This document shows, piece by piece, positions 14,774-40,259 of a stretch of DNA of 54,912 nucleotides. How positions within the stretch are numbered: the first letter of the stretch is position 1; the number at the start of each line of letters is the position of its first letter. The notes beneath the pieces were generated by a model. The model worked only from the letters and a program-made list of their open reading frames with translations, searched no databases and had not been told where the DNA came from. The stretch is from a virus. A program made the translations under genes and the position numbers. The stretch covers positions 1 to 54,912 of IMG/VR virus record IMGVR_UViG_3300008108_004142, one strand, 5' to 3'.

Positions 14774-17700
14774 ATGGCAAAGCAGATAGTTGATATTGGT
14801 GTTCAGGGCAACGACGGTACTGGTGACAGTATTCGTGAATCGTTCCGCAAAGTAAATGAAAACTTTGGCGAACTGTATGCAGTTTTTGGTGTTGAAGGTG
14901 CTATTAATTTCACAGATTTAAGTGATGCTCCTAGTTCTTATGATGCTAATCAAGTTATTATGGCTAACCTTTCTGGCGACGGTTTGACTGCTAGAACGCT
15001 AATAGCAGAAGGCGCATTAGAAATTGATGACACCGACGAAACAAAATTAATTCTTAGTGTTGGCCAAAGAGGTCTTGCAGACGATACAAGCCCATCATTA
15101 GGGTATTCATTAAATGCCAATGGATTATCTATCTTTAATATGGCCACACCTACGTCGGCCATTGCACAGAATATCTTAGAAGACAATCCAACTATTGCAC
15201 CTAATATCAATGCTGTATTTGATAAAATGGTTATTAACAAAGAATATGCTGACGAGCATTATCTTGGCATTGATGAAAACGGAGCAGTTGTAGGAGCACT
15301 GGCCGTAAGAAATGAACCACAGTTTCCAGAGTTTACAAATCCAAACTACAATCCTGATTTAACTGGAAACTTTCTTAAAAATGAAGCTGTTCAACGCCAA
15401 CATGTTGTTTATCGTGGTGGAGACACCATGTCTGGGCCATTGTTTTTAAATGACCATCCTACACCGTTACAAGGATACGGCACACCTAACGGTGCAACAG
15501 ACTTACAAGCGGCTACTAAATTTTATGTAGACAATCAAACATTTTCAAGCGCAATAAACTTGTATGTTAGTACAGCCTCGGGCGATGATTTACAACAAAG
15601 AACTCCAGTTGGTAAAGAAGGTCGATTCTGGCAATATGCCTATAAATCAATTGGCGCAGCATGTTTAGCCGCTGAAAACTTACAAGACATTGCTAATTTT
15701 GAACCAGGTCCTTACAGACAAAGACTTAGTTATACTATTGGTCCAGATCAATTTTTTAGTACTATTTCTGATTTCGTATTACAAGATGGTAATACTGCGG
15801 TTGCTGGATATCAAGATGCGTTTGATTTATTGCAAATTAACAAAGACTTTATTCAAGCAGAAACTATTGCTTATGTTAACAACAAATATGTTAATACTTT
15901 TACCTATGACAAAGAAAAATGTCAGCGAGACGTTGCTTATATTTTAAATGCTGTTGGTTACGATATTGTTCTAAATACCACATTTAACAGCAACAGGGCC
16001 GCTACTTTTTACTTTAACGGAACAGGCGACAAGGTCATTGGATCACAACTGATACAAACTATCGAAGCCATCAAATATGCCAGAGACGAAATACTTAATT
16101 TCCAGTATAGTAATACTGCCCTTAGTTTATATATTGGTCAAATTATTGATGCTCTTTGCTACGATTTAGTTTTAAAAACTAACTACCAAAGTTTGCAGAT
16201 AGCTAACATATTTGGATTCTCAGGTTCTAATATAAGTGTTGCTGAGTTAGTCGAAGTACTCTTAGACTTGCAGGCAAGTATTCTAGCACTTCCTTCTGTT
16301 TCATCTATACCTATAGCAGTTTCTTCTATACAAAATAACATTAATGCTATGATTAATGTTGTTACAGGAGACGAGTGGCCTGCTGTTGAGTTTACTGATC
16401 AGCCAGATTCTTCTGTTGGCCAAACTAGTGCTAGAGATTTAATGTTAGCAAACATCGATTTCTTGCAAGCAGAAACTACAGCATTCCTTGGATCAGAATT
16501 TCCAAACTTATCCTATGACAGAAACGCCTATAAAGACAATATTGAATATATTGCTTGGTCAGTAATTTATGACTTTATGTATGGCGGCAACAGTCAAAGT
16601 GTGTTTACAGGATTAACATTTTGGGACGGCTCGACTAGAAAAATCGAAGAGTACGAAGTTACACCATTTATAGCTCTGCTAGATTATATCAAAACTTTAA
16701 TTGTTGATATAGTCAATAGTGATAGCCCAACTACTGTTTATCAACAAAGTGTTAAACAATATAGAAATGAAACTCTTTTAAATGGTGGAGATGTTATTCC
16801 TTCTACCGATGCAAATATTGATATTATAAAAGATATTATACTTGATAAAACTGATGCTCCTTCTGTAGTATTTCCAGCATTTGTTTCTGCTGCTAGTGCG
16901 TTAAAAACAGCAAGGACATCAATTCTAACTAATAAATCTGGTTTCCAATCAGATGCAATTAACTACGTTGAAGACAATTTTCCTGTAATTAACGACCCGG
17001 ATATTTTAGATGATATCACTGATAAATTTCAAATAATCATTGACTTATTAACATTTGGTTTTTCAACTAGAGTTAATTCAACATATACTGCACCAGCTGG
17101 TATATCTGATTCGTATACAGATGCAAAAATATTAGCTATGGCTAATATTGACTTCATTGCTGACGAAACACTAGGATGGTTAACTACAAATGAACCTGCT
17201 TATGTGTCTGCTCCAACGTTTGATTCAGATGTTTTCAAACAACACATTAAAGATTGTGTGGAAGCTAGCATTTACGACCTTTACTATGGCGGCAATTCTG
17301 CAGCTAGATACAAAGGCGAGCAGTTAGAAATAGACGGACTAAACGACACTTCGTTCTTAAGTGCAGTAGAGTTTGCAGGTACATTACTAACATTAAACGT
17401 TGTTCAAAATACTGCTCCAGGAACTACATATAGTTCAACTCCTCAATTTATTGACGCAGTTTTATACCCGGACGGAGGCTTTGCTTCAGCACCGTTAGGT
17501 TTGTCATTTAGCTACATTAGTATTGTTGCAGACGGTGGGGAAGGTCCTACTGTTGCTTATCCTAATTTAGCAGGATATGACAGTGACTATATCAGTGCTA
17601 AAAACATCATAGATCTTAACACTGATGAAATTAAAGTAAACACAACCGACTGGTTAGATGTAAACTATAAAGGCGGATTTAATTACGACGAAGCCGTTTG

Positions 17701-20700
17701 CTATCGCGATGTAGGGTTAATTGTTGATGCTATGAGTATTGACTTGATTACCGGCGGTACCTATCAAAGTATTAATGCAGGTAAGAGTTATTATAGAAAT
17801 GCCAGTGCTCGTGCCATTGCTATTGGTACACAATATAAAGAAACATTAGATGCCATTAATTTTGCTAAAGAACTGCATTTACAAGTACTACAACAAATAA
17901 CTGCCAATAGATTTCAAACATTAGTTCCACAAGTTTTAAATCCTGCCAAAGTTGCGTCTTCTGCATCAATTGCCGATTTAACAACAAACGTTAATACTAT
18001 GATTAGTATCATAGAAGGAGGCGTTGGTGTAGCACCAACCCCAACATTTGGTACTGGTATATGGAATGTTATAATCAGTAACGGTGGAAATGGTTATGTT
18101 GACCAAGGTGCTCCAGGAAATAATGACATTATTGCTGCTAAAGTTTTAGTTGGTATAGATACTGCGGCTTACGGAAATATTGTAAAGTACACTCCAGGAA
18201 CTAGCTCAGGCGGCGACACTATTCAAGTAAGGTTAACAAAACCAGGATTTTTTACAATTGGTGAACAAATTGAGTTCGGTGAGACTGTACAAGACCAACA
18301 CATAACAATTTTTGTTGAAACTGGTATCTACTTCGAAGATTACCCAATCAAGTTACCTCCAAACACAAGTATTAAAGGAGACGAATTCCGTAGAACGATT
18401 GTTCGTCCAAAGGATAGGATTAGTCAAAGTCCATGGCGTAAAGTTTTCTTCTACAGAGATGCTGTTATCGATGCATTGGAACTGGGTCCTATTAATTATG
18501 GTACCGATTATGCAACATCTTCTAGTATAATCTTAGGCGGCACCACAGATAAAATTGTTATTACATTAGGTACCGGACAAGTTCCAAGTTCATGGGTTGG
18601 CAAAATTTTAATGGACGACAACGGAGCCAAGGAAGCAACTGGAACTTCTGTAACTAATAATAGAGTTACAACATTTACTCCGCACGGATTCGATGCAGGG
18701 GATCCTGTAATATTTAGAGGAACTACATTTGGTGGAGTTAATGAAGGAAAAATTTATTATGTATTAAGTACTCCAACTACTTCAACATTTACTATTACAG
18801 AAAAAGAAGGCAGTTCAATAGTAGTACCACTTACAACTGCAACTGGAAGTGTGCTAGTGATGAAGTCTAACAGAAGAGGTAAGGCTATTGTTGACTCTGT
18901 TAGCGGAAACTTCATGAACTGTAGCGTAATCTATCCATTCCAAACTGCAGCAACAATTTCTGGCGGTGACTGGCATTTATATGATCCGCTCAACTACGGA
19001 AGACATTATCTGTTGAACCCGCTAGATGCAACTAGCGAATCAAAAAATAATAAAGAAATCGATGCATTTTTATGTAACGATCAAACAAGAATTAGTAATC
19101 TAACATTCCAAGGACACGGCGGTTTTGCCATGGTACTTGACCCAGAAGGTCAGATTAAAACCAAGTCACCATACGGACAAGTTTGTTCATCATTCAGTCA
19201 ATCAAATAACCGTAAACGATTTGCTGGTGGACAGTTTGTTGACGGTTTCACTGGACGTCTTAGAGGAACTATTACAAAAGTTGAATACGATGGAGTTGAA
19301 AATTACGATTTAACTCAGTTAATTTCTGGTAGCGGGTATTTGCCTGCGACCGGAACAACTACTTACAACAATGTTCCAATTCAAGGAATTACTTTTACTG
19401 CTTCAAATACTTACACATCTGTAAATCAAGTTAAACTTGATACAGTAGTAAATCTTGTTGTAGGTAGTGCAATCACATTTACTGGAACAGTCTTTGGTGG
19501 AGTTGAAGAAGGAGTAAGATATTATATTACTAATATTGATTCACCAGTTGACAAATTAGTAAAAATTAGTAAAGTACAAGGTGGAACAAACGTTCAACTG
19601 ACTACAGCTTCGGGTACTATGACTGCCACCACAGGAGGTACTGGAGCGACTGCAAACGTCACTGTCACTAACGGTTTAGTCACAAACGTTGTTTCTAATG
19701 TTCCTGGAGAATATTATAAAACAGGCGAATGGATCTCGGTTGCTAATACCAATCTAGGCGGCTCTGGTTCTGGATTCCTAGTACCTGTTAATGGTGTTAA
19801 CGGTAAAGGAACAAAGATTACTGTACGAGGTTCAGTCAACAGCGGTTTAGATATTCGTCCTCCTCAACCACCATGTGCTTTCTTTGTTGAAGGTAGTCGT
19901 TATCAAATTAACGATGTTATAGCATGGAACCCTAACGCTTTTAATTACGACGAAGCTAAATGTAGCAGAGATGTAGGATACGTAGTTGAAGCGGTTATGT
20001 CAGACATTGTGTTTGACACAAATTATTCTTCTGTTGTAGCAGGTTTATCTTATATTAGAAGTTACAGCTCAGTAGTTACTACCAGTCAAAAAGAACAAAC
20101 TATTGCAGGCATGAATCGTGCTAGAGATTTAATTTACGATCTAGCTAATGACAATGCAACAAAAACTCAAATTAGAGCTAAGTTTAAAATTGTAACTGAT
20201 ATAATTAATGCGGTTAGTGCAAGTGCTGCACCAGCATTAACATTTACCAATCCAACTACAACAGCTCCAGTAATTGATTCTTTTGCAATTTTAGGAGCAA
20301 ATCGTCAATTTTTAATGGACGAAATTACTGCATACATTACTGACCAATCTATTACTATTGGTAGTTATGACGAAGATAGAGATGTAAGCGACTTAGTTAA
20401 TGCAATGGCATTTGATATATTGTATGGCGGCAATTCTGCTACAATTATTGCAGCTCGCGCATATTTTGACGGAACAAATCAAAACATAATTGCATCAGAA
20501 TTATCTTCCTATGTTGCTATCTTTAATCGTTTAAAAAATATTATCAATTATATTATATTAGGCGATGCTGTATCTTGGACAAAATCTACTGGAAACACAT
20601 CTACTCAGACAACTACAAGCCCTGGAGATTCTACAAATGCCACTAAGGCACAAACATTAACACAAATTGTTTTAGATATTATCCAAGGAATTTACGGAGA

Positions 20701-23700
20701 TACTCCAGTTCTTCCATCATATGCAGATGGTGCTGAATATGCAACAGCAGGTGATGACCAAACAACAATCCTTGGCAATATTGTTTCTGTTAAGAGCGGG
20801 GTAATAACTTTCCTTAATACAAACTACAAAGGCGGAGAAGTAGTTTTACAATTAGATAATGCAACACCTTATAATGCAGCAGGATTTTATAATAACGAAA
20901 TATGTTACAGAGATACTGGTTTAATTTTAGATGCTGTAACATATGATCTTGTAATTGGTTCTAACTATCAAACTGTAACTGCTGGTATTTCATATACACG
21001 TTCTACAGCATCTCTTGTATTAACTAATCAAAAATCTCCAACACTTGCTGGATTAAATTATGCAAGAGATTTAGCACTATCTGAATTGTCAGATGCATCA
21101 GCTATTGGGTCGTTAACAACATCTATGGCTGTCATTAATTCAGTTATAGAACAAGGTGTTGCAGCAGCACCAACTATAACATATCCAACTGCTTCTGGAA
21201 TCACAACTGCTGACGCAGAAAAATTAAAGAATAATCTAGTTGCTAATAGGGCGTTTATACAAAACGAACTTGTTTCCTATGTAGCTAGCTCGTATAATCT
21301 CAAAAATTATCCCTTGTATAGTTCAGTAAATGCTTCAAGAGATTTTGGATATATGCTAGATGCTATGGTGTACGACTTCATGTACGGAGGAAACTCCATG
21401 ACGTATGATGCCGCACAAGCGTATTATTCTAAAATAACAGGAGTAAGCACTATTGCTGGATTGCAGCCAATCTATATAGATGCATTTAGTAGATTGCAAA
21501 CTGTTTTACAACAGATAGCAGTCAACACAACTGTTACTAGATCAAGCGGCAATATTTTAGTTCAAACTGTAAATGCAGCTTTTGTTATTGGTTCTGGTAC
21601 AGCAGAATACGCTAAAATTGCTACCTTAGTTAGTATAGCTCAAGACTACATCTTAGACGGAGACTTTGATACTCCAACTACTAGAACTAGTCCCGATATC
21701 GCTGGCTTAGATCCTACTTTAGTAGCTGAAAAGGCAGCGGTGGATAGTGCCAAGACATCTATTCAACAGTCAGTTATAAATTATCTAAATGACGGTGGAC
21801 GCTTAACTATCAACATTGAAATGGGCGGTAACAAATCAATGTTGGCCAACGACTTTGCTATGATTAACGACTTGGGCTATGCTATTGTTTGTAAAAACGG
21901 TGGTGTATCAGAACAAGTGTCAACGTTTACATACTACTGTCATACTCACTATTGGGCTGCTGACGGCGGACAAATTCGTTCCGTTGCAGGTTCAAATGCA
22001 CATGGTACATACGGTCTACGTGCTTCAGGATTTGATATTACAGAAAAACCTGATTCGGTTAACCTTGCCAATGACATGGTTCAAGTTGCTCGTGTATATA
22101 AAGCAGGATCGTTCTCCAGCGAAATGACACCTACTGTAAACAAACAAGCTCTTAGTGTTTACATCTATGGTTACAGTTATACTCCAACTAATACTAGCGA
22201 ATTTGAAATTGATCATAGTATGGCTGGCGGTGCAATTACTCGTTATGAAATAAGCAGCGTAGAACATACAGTTGTTACTATTGGCGGTGTAAACGTACTT
22301 AAATGTAATCTAAGTACAGCAGGTAATAGTGGAACATCTAGTACTGGACTAGCATTTGCATTGTACGACGGTCAGATGGTTACAATTCGTGCATTACAGA
22401 ATGTTAAATTTAATAATATTGCTAACGTTAATCCAACTCGTCCAAGTACTGCACTACAATACAACGATAACTTAGCAGATATCTATCGTATTCTTGCTTA
22501 TAACTTAAACGATTCAACAGGAGAATTACTAGATAGTAATATTTCTATTCTTCAATCAGACAGTTCATTTGATTATTATAAATTTACAACAGATTTATCT
22601 AATGTTGGAACAGTAGACTGGGATGAAGCTATTTTAATTACAGGTGCAAGCGGTGATGGATCAACTGTTACTGTAACTTATGCCACACAATCAAGTGCTC
22701 CATTTATAGTTGGCGATTTTATTACAGTCAACGAAGTTGTTGATAGTGGTGTTTCAACAACTGCATATAACGGTGCGTACCGTGTTACTGCCTGTACAAC
22801 TACACAAGTACAATTTGCTAGTACAGTTACAGCAACGTATGTTGGTGGTGGTTATGTTGGTTCTAAGACACAAGGTTCGCGTGTTGGCGACAATAAGATT
22901 TCTATTCTTGAACTTAGTCAAGCCACAATTATTAATCAAATTAATAAAGGAATTTATCTGTTTGGTTGGCATGGCCGTACACACAGAATTGCAAGCTACA
23001 CACCTCCATTAAAAATTGCGCAGGCCAGCACTTTAGTAAGCTGGACTCCTGGTACAAGAACTTTAGTAGTTGATGTTGTAGCTGGAACTATTGAAACAGG
23101 AGACATATTAACAGGAACAGGTTGGCCTGTTACTACCCCAGTCTATGTTGAAAGTATAACACTTCCAGTAAGTCCTGCAACTCAATATACATTAGTAATA
23201 AATTCAGCTACTGGTGTAACAACACCAAGTGGTACTATTACTTTTGGTATATCAAGAAGCGGTTATCTAAATATTGATCCAAACTCTCTTACAAATATTT
23301 TAGGCGATGGTAGTACATTACCAGCCGTATCTTATATTAGTAAAACAGTACCTGCATCAGGTTTAAAATTTGCAACATACGAAGTTGCATGGCAACCTAA
23401 CTCTTTACCAATTGTTGATAACTGGTATAAATTTACTGGACAAACAACAAAGAACTATAACGACTGGAGACAGGTATCAAATGCTATTAGCGAAACACAA
23501 ATTGCTGTTAGTGACATAAGCGGTCTTCAAGTTGGAATGCTTGTAACCAGTTTAAGTCCTGGTGCATATATTCCTGAAGGTACTATTATTCAAAGCATCG
23601 ACAGTACAGCTAATACATTTACAGTAAGTCCTGCTTGCTGGGTACCAGCAGGGTCATTAGTTAGTTCGACTGTAGTTGCTACAGTAGCTAGTATTATAAT

Positions 23701-26700
23701 TACTAATGCAGGTACAGGATATACAACTCCTCCAATTATAAGCATTGGTACTTTCCCTGCGACCAACGGAGAAATTGCAAGAGCATTGGCAACATGTACC
23801 GTTAAAAACGGATCTATTGAAACTGTTACGTTGGTAAGTCCAGGTTACGGATATTCAAGTACTCCACTAATCACTTTAAGTGTTGGTAATGCTGTTCTTA
23901 CTGCTGTTCTAACATCTAGTCCAACAGTTAATACAACTGCTAGTGCAGGTATTAATACCAACAGAATTACAGTTGCATATCCAACTGATCCTGGAACATT
24001 TATATTAAATGATGTTGCATCAGTAACTGGTGCTATTGCTGACTCAGTTGGTGGAGTAAGTGCTGGTACTGTTCTCAATGTCACAGCAGTAAGCTCAGGA
24101 GTACTTAAAGTAGGTATGAGGCTGAGAGGCGATGGAATAAGTCCAAACACCTTTATTACTGCTTTTGATTCTGGTACTGGCGGAATAGGAACATATACAG
24201 TTAGTGTAAGTCAGTTACTTATTTCTTCAACAATTAATCTCGAAACAACTATAACTGGCTTTACCAGCAAAACTGGTCCTGCGGCATTTGAAGGAAGCAT
24301 TAGCGGAACTACACTAACTGTTTCATCTTTAACATCTGGAACAGTTGGTATTGGACAACGAGTCAAAGGTACAGGTGTTTCAAGCGGCACATACATTACC
24401 GCAGGATCGGGCTCAACTTGGACCGTAAGTGTAAGTCAAACAGTTGGAGCTGGCACTAGTCTTACAACAGACTTTGGAGTTACATTAGACATTAATACAG
24501 AAGCAGTTGCACCAACTGCTGGTGTTTGGTACGATATAGAGATGAGTAGTAATCCGTTGTACAACGGGTTGTATTATGCTGTTGTTACTACTACTAGCAG
24601 CATTACATTCAACTATTCGTATGATCCAGGCACTTGGAATTCACCTATTACTGTAAGTGCGTTTACTTCTAAAACAGGATCTGGACCATACTTAGTTACA
24701 CTTGAAATTCCTCTACAAGGCCAAGTGCCACAAATAGGAACACGTTGGGTAGTAGATGGTAATGGCACAGCCGATTACAATGGAACATTTGCTGTAACAG
24801 CTGCTACATCAACATCGATTACATTAAGTTACCCAAGTGATCCTGGCGCATATGGTGCGGGAACTACAACTTTAACTCCTGTAGTGAATGTCAGAAAACT
24901 GTCATTAAGTGCAACAAGCAGTCAACTAGGTTTAACAAAACCGTTTAGCTTAGGAACAGCCACAACCTTACGTGTAGGTTATCCAGCAGGTACACCTGCA
25001 CAAATTACTACACGTATTAGTACATGCCGTGCAACAGGGCATGACTTCTTAGATATTGGTACTGGCGGTTATTCAACAACTAACTATCCAGTTCAGATTT
25101 ATGGTAACCCTACACAAAGTAAACAACAGGCTAATGAAGTTTACGAAGAAGGTGTAGGTCGTGTATTCTACGTAACATCAGACCAAAACGGTATCTTCCG
25201 TGTAGGTCGATTCTTTACAGTTGACCAAGGCACTGGTACTGTTACATTCTCAGCGTCAATTGCGTTGAGTAACTTGGACGGTTTAGGATTTAAACGTGGT
25301 GTTGTTGTAAGTGAATTCTCAACAGATAGTTCAATGACTAACAACGCACCTGAAGTTGTTCCAGTACAAAGTGCTGTTCGTGGATACATTGATAAACGTC
25401 TAGGCCTGGATCACGGTGGCGGACCGGTTGCTTTAAGTAACTTAGTTGGTCCTGGATATATGGCCCTTAATGGTGCATTAACCATGAAGGGTAACATGAA
25501 CTTAGGTACATTTGCTATTACAAATTTAGCAACACCTATTAGTACAGATCCTGGAACAAATGCTGCTAATAAAACTTACGTTGATACCGCAATAGCCGAC
25601 TTCGATGAGTTTAATGAATTAAGAGATGTACAATGGACAAACTTACAAGAAGGTAATATTCCAGTATATGACCAAAGCACTTTAGTTTCTGTAGTTGGTG
25701 GTATTGGTAATGGAACAACTATTACACTTAACTTCTTAACACTAGCTAGTGCTCCGTTCCCAATTGGAAGTATTATTGTTGTAAGTGGTATCACTCCTGC
25801 AGGGTATAACGGAACATATATTGTAACTGGATGTACTACAAATAGTGTGAGTTATGCAAGCGTAGTAACCTTACCATATTCTAGTGGAGGAACTATTCTT
25901 GCTAATAAATGGCGTAATATTTTCCTACCAGACGACAGCGCAACTAGTGATGTATTGTTAACCTACAACGGTACAACAGGAAAAATAACTAGTACAATTC
26001 AAGCTCAAAAAATTGTCAACAGCATGGTTAGCCCAACTGCTGCAATCGCGCAGAGCAAATTGGCCATGAATGCTGCAACTTTAAGAGCAAATGCCACAAG
26101 CATTGCACAAGCAGATTTAGGTCTGGCATCGTTTAAATTAACCGAGTTTGATTCAACTAATGGTTGGATAGAATTAAAGAATGCAACTAGTTCTTCAACT
26201 GGTATTGTTTACAGCAAACTTCAATATGCTAGTCAAGGTACTGTCCTAGGCAGAGCCAAGACTGCTGGCACTGGCGCAATTGGTGAAATTGCGTTTGGAG
26301 ATATTATTTCTGGCGGTGACGGTATTAAAAATGCAAGTTTTGGTTCTGGAGCTACTCCACTAACTGGCTATGCTATGTTAGTCAGCTACGACGGATCAAC
26401 AACTAATAATAATACCTATAGTATAGTTAATGTAACAACTACTGGTCAAGCAAACAGTCTTGTTAAAACTGATGGAAGTAGTAATGTAAAAATTAACAGT
26501 GGACACGTAGATACTAGTGCAGGGTATTTTATTAGTACTAAGAAAATTATTGATGTTAATGGTTCTACAAATGCTGTACAATACTATACACCTGGCGGGC
26601 ATAATTACTCATCAACAATAGGTACTAGTGCGTTAAACACTACGACAACTATGACGGGTGTTTTAGATATCACTGGCGGAACATTAAAATCAGTATCCTT

Positions 26701-27271
26701 AACTACTGGTGCTACTGGAACAGGAGGGACAATAACAGGTGCATGGCAACTTTCTGCACTAAGTCAATTAGACCTTGCTACAAATAATAATAACTTCTTT
26801 AGTAAAACATTGTTAGCTGGCCCTAATGATAACGACCCTGGATCAATTAGAGGTTACTGGTCACTAAGCGGTTCAAGTCGTTTACAAGCTACCTATGCTG
26901 ACCTTGCAGAATACTACGAAGGTGATAGAGAATATAAACCTGGAATGGTATTAATATTTGGTGGTGACAAAGAAGTTACTACAACTACCACAATGAATGA
27001 TACTAGAGCAGCTGGTGTTGTTACAACAAATCCTGCTTATATTATGAACCAAGATCAAAAGGGTATTAAGGTTTGTATTGCCTTAGCAGGTAGGGTACCG
27101 TGTTGGGTAGTTGGACGGGTTAAGAAAGGGGACTTGTTGACAACAGCAACTACTGTTGGTTGTGCAATGAAGGCAAATAATCCGCAACTAGGTTCAATTA
27201 TTGGTAAAGCACTAGAGGATAAGGATTCAGGTGAAGCTGGTATTATTCAAGTTGCAGTAGGGAGAGTATAA
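14774..27271 (+). CDS. giant modular virion/tail protein, 4165 aa
   Basis: Single uninterrupted 12.5-kb gene, nearly a quarter of the window. The N-terminus (residues 7-36, with GNDGTGDSIRESFRKVNENF) is shared with the next genes and probably docks to the virion. Residues about 375-2260 carry at least eight related helical modules of two kinds: one with CxRDxGxxxDA and a YxS/G-SYxR element (near 378, 971, 1725, 2039), one with a YGGNS element (near 581, 815, 1864, 2180). Between them lies a beta-helix-like part (about 1175-1500). A block near 2385-2437 (TFTYYCHTHYWAADGGQ) is known to me from giant cyanophage structural proteins. Then come Ser/Thr/Gly-rich beta repeats, and a C-terminal domain from about 4040 (YADLAEYYEGD...GRV) shared by many tail fibres. 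It probably forms long tail or side fibres. Confidence 0.9.
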   Translation: MAKQIVDIGVQGNDGTGDSIRESFRKVNENFGELYAVFGVEGAINFTDLSDAPSSYDANQVIMANLSGDGLTARTLIAEGALEIDDTDETKLILSVGQRGLADDTSPSLGYSLNANGLSIFNMATPTSAIAQNILEDNPTIAPNINAVFDKMVINKEYADEHYLGIDENGAVVGALAVRNEPQFPEFTNPNYNPDLTGNFLKNEAVQRQHVVYRGGDTMSGPLFLNDHPTPLQGYGTPNGATDLQAATKFYVDNQTFSSAINLYVSTASGDDLQQRTPVGKEGRFWQYAYKSIGAACLAAENLQDIANFEPGPYRQRLSYTIGPDQFFSTISDFVLQDGNTAVAGYQDAFDLLQINKDFIQAETIAYVNNKYVNTFTYDKEKCQRDVAYILNAVGYDIVLNTTFNSNRAATFYFNGTGDKVIGSQLIQTIEAIKYARDEILNFQYSNTALSLYIGQIIDALCYDLVLKTNYQSLQIANIFGFSGSNISVAELVEVLLDLQASILALPSVSSIPIAVSSIQNNINAMINVVTGDEWPAVEFTDQPDSSVGQTSARDLMLANIDFLQAETTAFLGSEFPNLSYDRNAYKDNIEYIAWSVIYDFMYGGNSQSVFTGLTFWDGSTRKIEEYEVTPFIALLDYIKTLIVDIVNSDSPTTVYQQSVKQYRNETLLNGGDVIPSTDANIDIIKDIILDKTDAPSVVFPAFVSAASALKTARTSILTNKSGFQSDAINYVEDNFPVINDPDILDDITDKFQIIIDLLTFGFSTRVNSTYTAPAGISDSYTDAKILAMANIDFIADETLGWLTTNEPAYVSAPTFDSDVFKQHIKDCVEASIYDLYYGGNSAARYKGEQLEIDGLNDTSFLSAVEFAGTLLTLNVVQNTAPGTTYSSTPQFIDAVLYPDGGFASAPLGLSFSYISIVADGGEGPTVAYPNLAGYDSDYISAKNIIDLNTDEIKVNTTDWLDVNYKGGFNYDEAVCYRDVGLIVDAMSIDLITGGTYQSINAGKSYYRNASARAIAIGTQYKETLDAINFAKELHLQVLQQITANRFQTLVPQVLNPAKVASSASIADLTTNVNTMISIIEGGVGVAPTPTFGTGIWNVIISNGGNGYVDQGAPGNNDIIAAKVLVGIDTAAYGNIVKYTPGTSSGGDTIQVRLTKPGFFTIGEQIEFGETVQDQHITIFVETGIYFEDYPIKLPPNTSIKGDEFRRTIVRPKDRISQSPWRKVFFYRDAVIDALELGPINYGTDYATSSSIILGGTTDKIVITLGTGQVPSSWVGKILMDDNGAKEATGTSVTNNRVTTFTPHGFDAGDPVIFRGTTFGGVNEGKIYYVLSTPTTSTFTITEKEGSSIVVPLTTATGSVLVMKSNRRGKAIVDSVSGNFMNCSVIYPFQTAATISGGDWHLYDPLNYGRHYLLNPLDATSESKNNKEIDAFLCNDQTRISNLTFQGHGGFAMVLDPEGQIKTKSPYGQVCSSFSQSNNRKRFAGGQFVDGFTGRLRGTITKVEYDGVENYDLTQLISGSGYLPATGTTTYNNVPIQGITFTASNTYTSVNQVKLDTVVNLVVGSAITFTGTVFGGVEEGVRYYITNIDSPVDKLVKISKVQGGTNVQLTTASGTMTATTGGTGATANVTVTNGLVTNVVSNVPGEYYKTGEWISVANTNLGGSGSGFLVPVNGVNGKGTKITVRGSVNSGLDIRPPQPPCAFFVEGSRYQINDVIAWNPNAFNYDEAKCSRDVGYVVEAVMSDIVFDTNYSSVVAGLSYIRSYSSVVTTSQKEQTIAGMNRARDLIYDLANDNATKTQIRAKFKIVTDIINAVSASAAPALTFTNPTTTAPVIDSFAILGANRQFLMDEITAYITDQSITIGSYDEDRDVSDLVNAMAFDILYGGNSATIIAARAYFDGTNQNIIASELSSYVAIFNRLKNIINYIILGDAVSWTKSTGNTSTQTTTSPGDSTNATKAQTLTQIVLDIIQGIYGDTPVLPSYADGAEYATAGDDQTTILGNIVSVKSGVITFLNTNYKGGEVVLQLDNATPYNAAGFYNNEICYRDTGLILDAVTYDLVIGSNYQTVTAGISYTRSTASLVLTNQKSPTLAGLNYARDLALSELSDASAIGSLTTSMAVINSVIEQGVAAAPTITYPTASGITTADAEKLKNNLVANRAFIQNELVSYVASSYNLKNYPLYSSVNASRDFGYMLDAMVYDFMYGGNSMTYDAAQAYYSKITGVSTIAGLQPIYIDAFSRLQTVLQQIAVNTTVTRSSGNILVQTVNAAFVIGSGTAEYAKIATLVSIAQDYILDGDFDTPTTRTSPDIAGLDPTLVAEKAAVDSAKTSIQQSVINYLNDGGRLTINIEMGGNKSMLANDFAMINDLGYAIVCKNGGVSEQVSTFTYYCHTHYWAADGGQIRSVAGSNAHGTYGLRASGFDITEKPDSVNLANDMVQVARVYKAGSFSSEMTPTVNKQALSVYIYGYSYTPTNTSEFEIDHSMAGGAITRYEISSVEHTVVTIGGVNVLKCNLSTAGNSGTSSTGLAFALYDGQMVTIRALQNVKFNNIANVNPTRPSTALQYNDNLADIYRILAYNLNDSTGELLDSNISILQSDSSFDYYKFTTDLSNVGTVDWDEAILITGASGDGSTVTVTYATQSSAPFIVGDFITVNEVVDSGVSTTAYNGAYRVTACTTTQVQFASTVTATYVGGGYVGSKTQGSRVGDNKISILELSQATIINQINKGIYLFGWHGRTHRIASYTPPLKIAQASTLVSWTPGTRTLVVDVVAGTIETGDILTGTGWPVTTPVYVESITLPVSPATQYTLVINSATGVTTPSGTITFGISRSGYLNIDPNSLTNILGDGSTLPAVSYISKTVPASGLKFATYEVAWQPNSLPIVDNWYKFTGQTTKNYNDWRQVSNAISETQIAVSDISGLQVGMLVTSLSPGAYIPEGTIIQSIDSTANTFTVSPACWVPAGSLVSSTVVATVASIIITNAGTGYTTPPIISIGTFPATNGEIARALATCTVKNGSIETVTLVSPGYGYSSTPLITLSVGNAVLTAVLTSSPTVNTTASAGINTNRITVAYPTDPGTFILNDVASVTGAIADSVGGVSAGTVLNVTAVSSGVLKVGMRLRGDGISPNTFITAFDSGTGGIGTYTVSVSQLLISSTINLETTITGFTSKTGPAAFEGSISGTTLTVSSLTSGTVGIGQRVKGTGVSSGTYITAGSGSTWTVSVSQTVGAGTSLTTDFGVTLDINTEAVAPTAGVWYDIEMSSNPLYNGLYYAVVTTTSSITFNYSYDPGTWNSPITVSAFTSKTGSGPYLVTLEIPLQGQVPQIGTRWVVDGNGTADYNGTFAVTAATSTSITLSYPSDPGAYGAGTTTLTPVVNVRKLSLSATSSQLGLTKPFSLGTATTLRVGYPAGTPAQITTRISTCRATGHDFLDIGTGGYSTTNYPVQIYGNPTQSKQQANEVYEEGVGRVFYVTSDQNGIFRVGRFFTVDQGTGTVTFSASIALSNLDGLGFKRGVVVSEFSTDSSMTNNAPEVVPVQSAVRGYIDKRLGLDHGGGPVALSNLVGPGYMALNGALTMKGNMNLGTFAITNLATPISTDPGTNAANKTYVDTAIADFDEFNELRDVQWTNLQEGNIPVYDQSTLVSVVGGIGNGTTITLNFLTLASAPFPIGSIIVVSGITPAGYNGTYIVTGCTTNSVSYASVVTLPYSSGGTILANKWRNIFLPDDSATSDVLLTYNGTTGKITSTIQAQKIVNSMVSPTAAIAQSKLAMNAATLRANATSIAQADLGLASFKLTEFDSTNGWIELKNATSSSTGIVYSKLQYASQGTVLGRAKTAGTGAIGEIAFGDIISGGDGIKNASFGSGATPLTGYAMLVSYDGSTTNNNTYSIVNVTTTGQANSLVKTDGSSNVKINSGHVDTSAGYFISTKKIIDVNGSTNAVQYYTPGGHNYSSTIGTSALNTTTTMTGVLDITGGTLKSVSLTTGATGTGGTITGAWQLSALSQLDLATNNNNFFSKTLLAGPNDNDPGSIRGYWSLSGSSRLQATYADLAEYYEGDREYKPGMVLIFGGDKEVTTTTTMNDTRAAGVVTTNPAYIMNQDQKGIKVCIALAGRVPCWVVGRVKKGDLLTTATTVGCAMKANNPQLGSIIGKALEDKDSGEAGIIQVAVGRV
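15905..21420 (+). repeat. two interleaved families of diverged protein-level repeats in the giant gene
   Basis: Type A modules (CxRDxGxxxDAxxxD...YxS...SYxR) start near 15905, 17684, 19946 and 20888. Type B modules (YDxxYGGNS) have their core near 16570, 17285, 20425 and 21380. A and B alternate in three places. Conservation is at the protein level; the DNA has diverged, which indicates old duplications kept by selection rather than recent expansion. Confidence 0.75.
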
Positions 27272-37531: not shown

Positions 37532-38046
37532 AAGAAAAGTTAAAACGAGCATATATGAAGACCGCAGAAACATTTGCGGAATTAAGTCATGCACGTAGAC
37601 TTCATGTAGGTGCCATTGTAGTCAAAGATGATAGGATTATCTCTATTGGCTACAATGGCATGCCCGCAGGTTGGGACAATAACTGTGAAGACGTTAAATG
37701 GGATTCAGGAGCTGGCGGATGGCTAAGTCCTGAAGAGATTCTAGAACAATATCCATACGAAGGGTGGCATGAACAAGCAGGTCGTAATGTGAGATATGGA
37801 TTAAAAACTAAACCCGAGGTACTACATGCTGAAACAAATGCGATTGCGAAACTTGCTAAGTCTAACGAGTCTGGTCTGGGTGCTACTATGTTTATTACCC
37901 ATGCTCCATGTTTGGACTGTGCCAAACTTATATACCAAAGTGGTATTGGGCACGTTCTATATAGGGACTCTTATAGGGATACTGGTGGTATCACGTTTCT
38001 TGAAAAATCAGGAATTAAAGTAGAACAAATTGAAAAGGACGCCTGA
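37528..38046 (+). CDS. dCMP deaminase
   Basis: A 172-aa zinc-dependent deoxycytidylate deaminase that makes dUMP for thymidylate synthesis. Catalytic motif LHAETNAI with His100 and Glu102, and PCLDC with Cys128 and Cys131 as zinc ligands. The N-terminal SHARRLHVGAIVVKDDRIISIGYNGMP matches the family. An insertion between residues 50 and 95 carries Cys53 and His81, as in T4-type dCMP deaminases with an extra structural zinc. It overlaps the clamp loader gene by 4 bases and ends in a terminator. Confidence 0.95.
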   Translation: MKEKLKRAYMKTAETFAELSHARRLHVGAIVVKDDRIISIGYNGMPAGWDNNCEDVKWDSGAGGWLSPEEILEQYPYEGWHEQAGRNVRYGLKTKPEVLHAETNAIAKLAKSNESGLGATMFITHAPCLDCAKLIYQSGIGHVLYRDSYRDTGGITFLEKSGIKVEQIEKDA

Positions 38047-38058
38047 GCGTCCTTTTTT
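38033..38058. terminator. bidirectional terminator between dCMP deaminase and phoH
   Basis: Ten-base stem AAAAGGACGC (38033-38042) / GCGTCCTTTT (38047-38056) with a CTGA loop, covering the stop codon of the deaminase gene. T-runs on both strands let it serve phoH from the other side. Confidence 0.9.
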
Positions 38059-38067
38059 ATTGATTCA

Positions 38068-38781
38068 TTAGTCGCCGTAAATTTCTAACACCTCCTTGAC
38101 GGCATCATGTCTTTCAATATCGTTCGAATCAAATTGAACAATATCAATATGTTTAGTTTGCTTACGTGCGAGTAGGTTGCAAAAATCTATCAATCCGTTA
38201 TCGCGTAATCTGTCTGCCTGAGCTAAATCGCCTGTCACTACCATCTTGGACCCTTCTCCCAAGCGTGTAAGTAGCATCTTCATTTGATTTATAGTAGTAT
38301 TCTGACATTCGTCAGCAATGATGTATGCGTTTTTGAATGTGCGTCCACGCATATACGCTAATGGGCTTATCTCGATAACTCCTTCCTCCAACATTTTTTT
38401 AATGTCTGTTTGTTTATAATACTCTGCAAATACGTCAAATATGGGTCTTGTCCAAGGTGCCATTTTTTCGTTCAAGTCACCTGGTAAAAACCCTAGATCT
38501 TCGTCCACAGAGACGGCGGGTCTTGTAACTATGATTTTGTCAACTAATCCGTCCTGGAATAGTTTAATACCGTTTTGCACAGCCAGCAACGTTTTACCTG
38601 TGCCTGCGGGCCCAATAGCAATAACAATACTGTTTTGCTCATCGTGCAGCTTGCTTAGGTATAGTTTCTGGTTAGGATTTCGTGCAGTGATTACTACACG
38701 CTGCTTCTTCGCGGGAAGATATGGTTCAAAATCAATTACTTTAACTTCTGATGTAAAGCGTTTCTTCACTCTTTTACTCAT
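38068..38781 (-). CDS. phoH: PhoH-like ATPase
   Basis: A 237-aa P-loop protein of the PhoH family, very common in marine phages. Walker A GPAGTGKT at residues 57-64, IVTRPAV near 84-90, the conserved EDLGFLPGDLNEKM block (94-107), Walker B-like IIADECQN (154-161) and the MVVTGD sensor strand. It is an RNA helicase/ATPase-type domain; despite the name, a role in phosphate starvation is unproven. It is one of few reverse-strand genes, convergent with the deaminase. A structured leader lies upstream; the start follows an AGGAG site contained in that structure. Confidence 0.95.
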   Translation of the reverse strand: MSKRVKKRFTSEVKVIDFEPYLPAKKQRVVITARNPNQKLYLSKLHDEQNSIVIAIGPAGTGKTLLAVQNGIKLFQDGLVDKIIVTRPAVSVDEDLGFLPGDLNEKMAPWTRPIFDVFAEYYKQTDIKKMLEEGVIEISPLAYMRGRTFKNAYIIADECQNTTINQMKMLLTRLGEGSKMVVTGDLAQADRLRDNGLIDFCNLLARKQTKHIDIVQFDSNDIERHDAVKEVLEIYGD

Positions 38782-38793
38782 CTAAGTTGTTCT

Positions 38794-38850
38794 CCTACTC
38801 GTAAAAGTAGGACTTGTAGCGACCGCCCTTGATAACTACAGAGGTCCTAC
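38794..38850 (-). promoter_or_regulatory. switch-like RNA leader of phoH with two exclusive hairpins
   Basis: Read 5' to 3' on the reverse strand: GTAGGAC (38850-38844), an inner stem TGTAG (38840-38836) / CTACA (38819-38815) around a 16-base loop, then GTCCTAC (38813-38807) closing a 7-bp outer stem. The same CCTACT bases (38811-38806) can instead pair with AGTAGG (38799-38794), which includes the ribosome site AGGAG. The first hairpin would therefore free the ribosome site and the second would hide it. About 12 bases of AACAACTTAG-type spacer separate the site from the ATG. Confidence 0.5.
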
Positions 38851-38940
38851 ACATTTATTTACTGTATTTGTCAAAAAGTAAACTGATATGTTATGATTTT
38901 AAACCAGCTAAATAAGTATAGAAACTTTCCAGGACTTAAC

Positions 38941-39531
38941 ATGTACGATATTTTAGACATTATACGCAATATTGATAACTTATACGAAAACAACACTAGC
39001 CTAGCTATTTTAAAGGATGTTGAGCGTGTTATTGATCAACTAGACATTTATGCTTATGAAAACTGGGAAAAGGGCGAGTTGGCCTACGGACCCCAGGTTG
39101 ATCGTCATTGGATAACAGCAGGATTCATGTGGCCTGCTAAAGAAATGCCAAATCCTACAGCAGCCAAACGATTACAAGAAATAGGATGCAAAATAAAGTA
39201 TCAACGTAGTCATTTGGTAGAACCTCGCAAAATTAAGACACATGAAGACATTAGACCCGGAACAAAAAAAGGTAAACTTGATCGTAAACCAATTTGGATT
39301 GTAGAAATACAAATGCCAAAAAAAGTAGCATTTGATATGTATCGTGGATACATGGATAGAATGAAAGCTGAAACTGAACCTGATAAATCAGAACAGAAAA
39401 AACAAGCAATGCCTGGAGCAATGCCAGGAGCGATGCCAGGAGCGATGCCTGGCATGCCGCCAACAGGTGGAGCAATGCCTGCCGCTCCAACACCAGGAGC
39501 AGCGCCAGCAATGCCAGGAGCACCAGTATAA
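38941..39531 (+). CDS. conserved phage protein with Met-Pro-Gly-Ala tail, 196 aa
   Basis: The start is placed at ATG 38941, which has AGGA upstream and a late-like box GCTAAATA at 38907-38914; a frame from ATG 38893 adds 16 residues but lacks a ribosome site. Domain of about 140 residues (MYDILDIIRNIDNLYENN...RPGTKKGKLDRKPIWIVEI), which I recall from T4-like cyanophages as a conserved unknown. The C-terminal 45 residues are low-complexity AMPG/APTPGA repeats, a flexible tail. The next gene begins inside its stop (TAATG). Confidence 0.8.
   Translation: MYDILDIIRNIDNLYENNTSLAILKDVERVIDQLDIYAYENWEKGELAYGPQVDRHWITAGFMWPAKEMPNPTAAKRLQEIGCKIKYQRSHLVEPRKIKTHEDIRPGTKKGKLDRKPIWIVEIQMPKKVAFDMYRGYMDRMKAETEPDKSEQKKQAMPGAMPGAMPGAMPGMPPTGGAMPAAPTPGAAPAMPGAPV
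39406..39453 (+). repeat. four 12-base tandem repeats coding for AMPG
   Basis: Units at 39406, 39418, 39430 and 39442 of the form GC(A/G)ATGCC(T/A)GG(A/C), in frame, giving (AMPG)4. The units differ at a few positions. Copy number may vary between relatives by slippage. Confidence 0.9.
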
Positions 39532-40259
39532 TGATTAATGAAAGTCTCAGGGCAAATGATCTTAGAGGGTTTGTTAAAAAAATCATCGAGATCGATGCAT
39601 TTAAAAGTAAAATTGGTGACGACGAAGATATTATAACCATATCCTTTACTGTTGACCAAGAAGATCCAGCAAAAGATTTAGAAAATTTTATTGAGATGGG
39701 TTTTGAGTTTGTATTAGATGCAGACGTCAGTCCAGGTGAACTAGATGATGGTACGTACCGAGTATATGTTGAATTAGAACGAAGTCGTCATGCTGCTGAA
39801 CAAATTATAGAAATACTTGACGGAGTTAAAAAAATTACAGGTATTGAAAATTTTAAATTTAGATATTTTAAAAATTTCAGAAGTCAAGAAGCAACGGAAG
39901 AAAATTTAAAGGTAGCTATTCCTTTAGATAAAAACAGTTATGAAATAGCAACTCAACGAAATAAAGTTGATAATTTTCAAGAATTTTTTAGCCGTAGTTA
40001 TGTTGATGACATTCAACTATTAGACGAATCGATTAGTTTTAAAAGAATTTACGGCGACAAAGTAGTATTTGATATTGTAACTAGTGGTTCAAAAACCGAA
40101 GTCTATGAACAACTTAGTGGACCAATCATGTTAGAAAGTTATAGCATGGCGGAAATAATGTTTCTTACAAAATATATTGGAAACTATAATATTACAAAAG
40201 TAGATAACACTTTTGTATTCGAAAACAACGGCTGGGCCGTTGCACTTAAAAGGAAATAG
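39531..40259 (+). CDS. conserved phage protein, 242 aa
   Basis: Starts one base inside the previous stop. Acidic protein with alternating strands and helices. The first third contains EDIITISFTVDQEDPAKDLENFI, then LDDGTYRVYVELERSRHAAEQIIEIL, resembling a ferredoxin-like alpha/beta unit. The second half (FQEFFSRSYVDDIQLLDESISFKR) is conserved in T4-like marine phages to my recollection. No motif points to catalysis. The position beside the 196-aa protein and before the lysis genes suggests a virion or morphogenesis role, but this is not shown. Confidence 0.75.
   Translation: MINESLRANDLRGFVKKIIEIDAFKSKIGDDEDIITISFTVDQEDPAKDLENFIEMGFEFVLDADVSPGELDDGTYRVYVELERSRHAAEQIIEILDGVKKITGIENFKFRYFKNFRSQEATEENLKVAIPLDKNSYEIATQRNKVDNFQEFFSRSYVDDIQLLDESISFKRIYGDKVVFDIVTSGSKTEVYEQLSGPIMLESYSMAEIMFLTKYIGNYNITKVDNTFVFENNGWAVALKRK

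Follow-up and report, generated by a model that had tools for sequence, protein, structure and literature searches.

The phoH gene of this virus is preceded by what is probably a new cis-acting RNA switch of a familiar type, absent from Rfam and from the literature that was searched. In the window (the whole stretch of 54,912 nucleotides analysed), the leader of phoH can adopt two folds, in one of which the SD sequence is hidden, and this probably controls the timing of phoH translation. The reading that we favour, and hold to be fairly probable, is that a bistable element forms the 5′ end of a late phoH mRNA and is predicted to gate its translation. Computation shows the conservation of the element, both of its helices, its exclusivity to phoH, the fixed spacing of a promoter-like core and the near-equal energies of the rival folds.

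The phoH leader contains mutually exclusive helices

On the reverse strand, the sequence 5′ of phoH runs TAAATA-AATGT-GTAGGACCTCTGTAGTTATCAAGGGCGGTCGCTACAAGTCCTACTTTTACGAGTAGGAGAACAACTTAG-ATG, and comprises the following features.

38068–38781, reverse strand: phoH, presumably the gene under control; its 237-aa product belongs to the PhoH family PF02562 (E 1.6e-74)
38856–38861, reverse strand: TAAATA, candidate T4-type late promoter core (AGTAAATA), with a predicted +1 at 38850
38792–38850, reverse strand: the entire conserved RNA element, matching covariance model R1 (76.9 bits, E 1.1e-15)
38844–38850, reverse strand: segment a, GTAGGAC; predicted mRNA 5′ end, serving both P1 and the a:b hairpin as their 5′ strand
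38850–38844 with 38813–38807, reverse strand: P1, GTAGGAC with GTCCTAC, 7 bp
38840–38836 with 38819–38815, reverse strand: inner stem, TGTAG with CTACA, 16-nt loop
38815–38840, reverse strand: P2 hairpin, TGTAGT/GCTACA, a U.C mismatch, ATC/GGT and loop AAGGGC
38816–38824, reverse strand: segment b, GGTCGCTAC; finds its partner inside P2 or in the GTAGGACC of segment a
38850–38843 with 38824–38816, reverse strand: a:b hairpin, GTAGGACC with GGTC-G-CTAC; the alternative 5′ hairpin
38807–38813, reverse strand: segment c, GTCCTAC; strand common to P1 (with a) and P3 (with d)
38792–38812, reverse strand: P3, TCCTACT(T) paired to (G)AGTAGGA; the hairpin that hides the SD, AGGAG (38796–38792), which it contains

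A sequence-only reading of this DNA had proposed the 7-bp P1 stem, the inner 5-bp stem with its 16-base loop and a rival CCTACT/AGTAGG helix over the AGGAG of phoH, and all three were found where it placed them. The core of P3 (CCTACT 38811–38806 with AGTAGG 38799–38794) overlaps the SD and can be extended to 7–8 bp. That reading had missed the a:b alternative hairpin, as well as the upper P2 stem, ATC/GGT, which lies past a conserved U.C mismatch; the 3′ strand of P2 is part of segment b. Folded alone, the P1/P2 hairpin reaches −19.0 kcal/mol, a stability that 0 of 200 shuffles equalled (z = −3.2). The leader structure is far from chance.

Around the leader, phoH is the lone reverse-strand gene in its stretch of the window. 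Its divergent neighbour (38893–39531) is a PHROG 12928 virion structural protein ending in Met-Pro-Gly-Ala repeats, directly followed by a PHROG 13138 virion structural protein (39531–40259). A bidirectional terminator-like hairpin (38032–38057) separates phoH from a convergent deoxycytidylate deaminase-like gene. Elsewhere in the window, a single ORF of 4165 amino acids occupies 14774–27271.

Both helices appear to be under selection

Pairing was assessed across 40 distinct leaders. P1 and P2 together were paired in 97.2% of cells (96.9% for P2), with 7 cells changed on both sides compared to 1.6 in shuffles (0/500). For the alternative arrangement, a:b plus c:d, 95.6% of cells were paired and 5 were changed on both sides, compared to 1.5 in shuffles (6/500); P3 cells were paired in 95.9% of cases. 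Changes were then counted on a tree of the PhoH protein, which is independent of the leader. Pairing was kept in 53 of 59 changes in P1 (6 broke it), with 4 double changes, and in 72 of 86 changes in P3 (14 broke it), again with 4 double changes. In P2, 25 changes kept pairing and 8 broke it, with 1 double change. Controls in which the partner strand was slid along gave 0–1 double changes. For a:b, 8 changes kept pairing, 10 broke it and none was double, so that in the close family this hairpin is backed only by its retention, by folding and by the far group described below. Individual leaders also carry variants: L244 has a compensatory change in P2 (UAC/GUA), and in different relatives P3 is longer than the SD requires, its flanks being matched to each other (CTACATTCCCCAATGTAG, CTACTTCCCCAAGTAG).

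An R-scape-like test of all pairs against a tree null gave no pair at E < 0.05. The family contains 237 inferred substitutions, and this test lacks power because the sequences are too conserved; our claim is therefore based on structure-specific counts, and not on de novo covariation. For the covariation check that the sequence-only reading had put forward, compensatory changes are seen in the structure-specific counts, and the all-pairs test is not significant. The switch-like logic of that reading, with one strand shared by two exclusive helices of which one contains the SD, is supported by comparative pairing, by the tree counts and by predicted refolding. From the leader alignments, both P1/P2 and the competing P3 appear to be kept by selection.

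Distant relatives keep the rivalry for the 5′ end

The leaders of PhoH genes that are 61–69% identical no longer match the covariance model convincingly. Most start at the same distance from TAAATA, begin with GYAG and hold two complements of that segment; the loop sequence is replaced and the pairing logic is kept. We compared 24 far clusters to shuffles in which a and the SD were fixed, and found a second complement of a (Fisher p 4e-17), a pairing of a with the middle of the same leader that beats swapped pairing (p 5e-5) and a weak middle-to-SD pairing (p about 0.05–0.10), all of these p values being too small because the clusters are related by descent. As the far group keeps two complements while its SD pairing is weak, it is the competition for the 5′ end that has been kept most deeply. 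Hiding of the SD is clear in the close family and weaker in distant relatives. The distant relatives are largely marine, a reading taken from metagenome identifiers and not computed.

Several leaders depart from the common layout. In a 70%-identical group (L237, L239, L240, L241 and L471–L474) there is a 5′ hairpin only, GTAGTA...TACTAC with compensatory variants, and no P1 partner. L323, L327 and L329 carry the variant GCGGGACTGTAGGAAACGGTCCCTACAGTCCTGC, in which the P2 loop is shortened and the rival pairings GGGAC/GTCCC and P1 are both possible. In L249, L264, L288 and similar far leaders, a hairpin ACTCAT(AGGAGGACTTA)ATGGGT pairs the start codon and leaves the SD in its loop; judged from its layout, this would be a different route to initiation control.

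The element is confined to phoH

A PhoH protein search of IMG/VR returned 80 close relatives, all with the same leader or a close variant. The close family (phoH at least 68% identical), enlarged by searches from diverged PhoH queries, has 116 distinct leaders, and the leader was present in every close relative found. In a motif scan, 183 of 189 matches lay directly 5′ of a PhoH gene and the remaining six were cut by a contig end; among matches with enough flank to be tested, 183/183 preceded phoH. Covariance model R1, built from 40 leaders including that of the window, recovered the phoH leader and nothing else convincing in the window, and one strong copy in each of 22 viral records searched whole (28–400 kb). 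No copy before any other gene was found in the window, in the 22 whole records or among the motif matches. In bacterial and archaeal genomes there was no match beyond two chance ones, and bacterial copies were rejected on that ground. No Rfam 15 family reached its gathering threshold on the window, and literature searches on phoH leaders, RNA motifs and huge phages gave no description of the element. The best phoH matches in cultured phages are about 53–54% identical at most; the leaders of Phosso, PAC2 (PA5oct type) and Atu_ph07 are without the element. The same leader and phoH are carried by four contigs of 345–400 kb (G005, G018, G019 and G020; loci L038, L318, L351 and L329), and the window may therefore derive from the larger genome of a jumbo phage.

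This distribution bears on whether the leader could be a metabolite-binding translational riboswitch, in which a small molecule would stabilise P1/P2 and free the SD, using the conserved 3x1 internal loop, the U.C mismatch and the GGC loop. The leader has an aptamer-like domain with compensatory changes (the unbiased all-pairs test not being significant), conservation is strong at its unpaired nucleotides in the loop and mismatch, and its exclusive SD-hiding helix, evident from pairing counts, the tree and predicted refolding, forms an expression platform typical of translational riboswitches. However, riboswitches usually, if not obligatorily, serve several genes or lineages, and here we see the element only before phoH, in one copy per record, with just the two chance matches in bacterial and archaeal genomes and no Rfam family. 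Moreover, the loop sequence is replaced in distant relatives while the pairing logic stays. We consider a metabolite ligand unlikely. Confinement to the gene of its own regulator is what an autogenous operator would show, and the occurrence before phoH alone fits a gene-specific regulator at least as well as a metabolite riboswitch.

The helix starts at a predicted late mRNA 5′ end

The candidate T4-type late core TAAATA, missed by the sequence-only reading, lies 5 nt before P1, and TAAATA (in a few cases TAAGTA) is found 5′ of the leaders of nearly all relatives. The hairpin starts exactly 5 nt after this core in 53 of 61 leaders, and 4 or 6 nt after it in the rest; as extraction of these leaders required the core, the count tests spacing only, whereas the presence of the core is read from the close relatives. 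One relative (L126) has the complete TATAAATA. In T4, the late promoter TATAAATA occupies −13 to −6 (PMC1524935), which places the predicted +1 at the first base of P1. The same core occurs 20–55 nt 5′ of the start codon of several other window genes. The TTGACA hexamer noted in the sequence-only reading is indeed present at 38874–38869 on the reverse strand, but was rejected as a sigma-70 −35 box: it is not conserved among relatives and is thus unlikely to act as a promoter. The conserved element would instead be of the T4 late type, which explains why that reading had not come upon a −10 box. An intrinsic terminator was also rejected, as none was found at the leader and the T run reads CCCC in many relatives.

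Part of the structure could also act in mRNA stability, given that its helix begins where transcription is predicted to start. If this were its whole function, a helix sealing the first base would guard the late phoH mRNA from 5′-end-dependent decay and P3 would be merely a fixed translational damper. The predicted +1 is the first base of a:b as well as of a:c, at a constant distance from the promoter, and no part is conserved more deeply than the 5′ hairpin, which is all that L237–L241 and L471–L474 keep. However, neither a 5′ end with two competing partners nor a strand shared with an SD hairpin that shows compensatory changes is needed in a plain stabiliser, and as a full account it strikes us as improbable. 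A 5′ stabilising role may coexist with the switch.

Rival folds are nearly equal in predicted energy

For the window leader including the SD, the rival folds have predicted energies of −24.1 and −23.5 kcal/mol, within about 1 kcal/mol of each other; across leaders, E_A − E_B has a median of 1.4 kcal/mol (quartiles −0.6 to 3.1). Folding order was predicted for 116 leaders by equilibrium folding of growing transcripts, and is thus thermodynamic, not kinetic. With b freshly transcribed, the a:b hairpin is predicted in 97% of leaders. Transcripts that stop short of the SD give a:c (P1/P2) in 98%, and those that include it give a:b with c:d in 77–78%. With 15 nt of coding sequence added, c:d is still dominant in 59%; for the window leader, the predicted balance shifts from one fold to the other as more or less coding sequence is added. 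Some other window genes have SDs predicted to be as hidden as that of phoH.

The same predictions speak against the thermosensor that the sequence-only reading had entertained, in which warming would open the SD. The hairpin holding the SD is indeed of moderate stability and includes G.U pairs in many relatives, but the predicted median exposure of the SD is 0.11 at 10 °C and still just 0.24 at 37 °C (123 leaders), not the steep change expected of a thermometer, and in the window leader cold is predicted to favour P1/P2; we regard this explanation as very improbable. The idea that any CCT-rich segment would pair with an SD by chance, for which the modest c:d match taken alone in far leaders could be cited, has a negligible probability in view of 116 distinct leaders, compensatory changes, pairing and tree counts, and a P3 that extends past the SD with matched flanks.

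Discussion

The effect on translation, its direction and the kind of signal are inferred. With c paired to a (P1, with P2 on top), the SD would be left out of P3; with c paired to d, the SD would be buried in P3 and a taken up by b, since pairing of a with b sets c free for the SD. During transcription, a:b would form first and a:c would replace it before the SD is transcribed, giving way mostly to a:b with c:d, and a hidden SD, afterwards. As the equilibrium order ends in a:b with c:d, the full-length leader would by default be OFF or low, and whatever holds P1/P2 together would keep it ON. The likeliest signal would be a phoH-specific RNA-binding factor, be it PhoH itself, another phage protein or ribosome occupancy; because the element is confined to phoH, such a dedicated factor seems likelier than a general metabolite as the trigger. 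More tentatively, PhoH may bind or remodel its dedicated bistable leader and so control its own synthesis, the logic being kept and the sequence rewritten between freshwater and marine relatives; we offer this as a speculative possibility. An interaction between YbeZ, the E. coli relative of PhoH, and the endoribonuclease YbeY has been described, in a paper that gives the function of YbeZ as unknown (PMC5101352). A leader peptide was also considered, since ATG TGT AGG ... TAG is open in the window, and was rejected as unlikely because the loop lengths of relatives differ by non-multiples of three.

Translational riboswitches such as the preQ1 and SAM classes have a 5′ structured domain that rivals an SD-hiding helix via a shared strand, and the phoH leader shows the same competition. 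Unlike them, it has no Rfam match and a single target gene, its helix starts with the base predicted to be transcribed first, and its relatives keep the logic but not the sequence. The T4 autogenous operators (gp43, gp32 and RegA targets) act on one phage gene or a few at the ribosome-binding site, and the phoH leader is similarly dedicated; a protein that binds the phoH leader is putative. We know of no gp43, gp32 or RegA operator that is a two-state refolding leader of this design. Stabilising stem-loops of the ompA type have their stem right at the 5′ terminus of the mRNA, as is predicted for phoH, but the 5′ strand of the phoH leader has two rival partners, one of which also pairs the SD. 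Structured RNAs of T4-like phages and cyanophages include wcaG, PhotoRC-II and the glutamine riboswitch (PMC9964418). In contrast to these, the phoH leader is tied to phoH, and no Rfam family matches in the window.

Few marker genes of environmental viruses are as common as phoH. If our reading is correct, a dedicated and deeply conserved phoH switch would imply that it matters, late in infection, when PhoH is made or how much of it, and would offer a concrete handle on what PhoH responds to. The leader would then represent a family of structured RNAs, so far unlisted, in large uncultured phages, and its folding order is testable.
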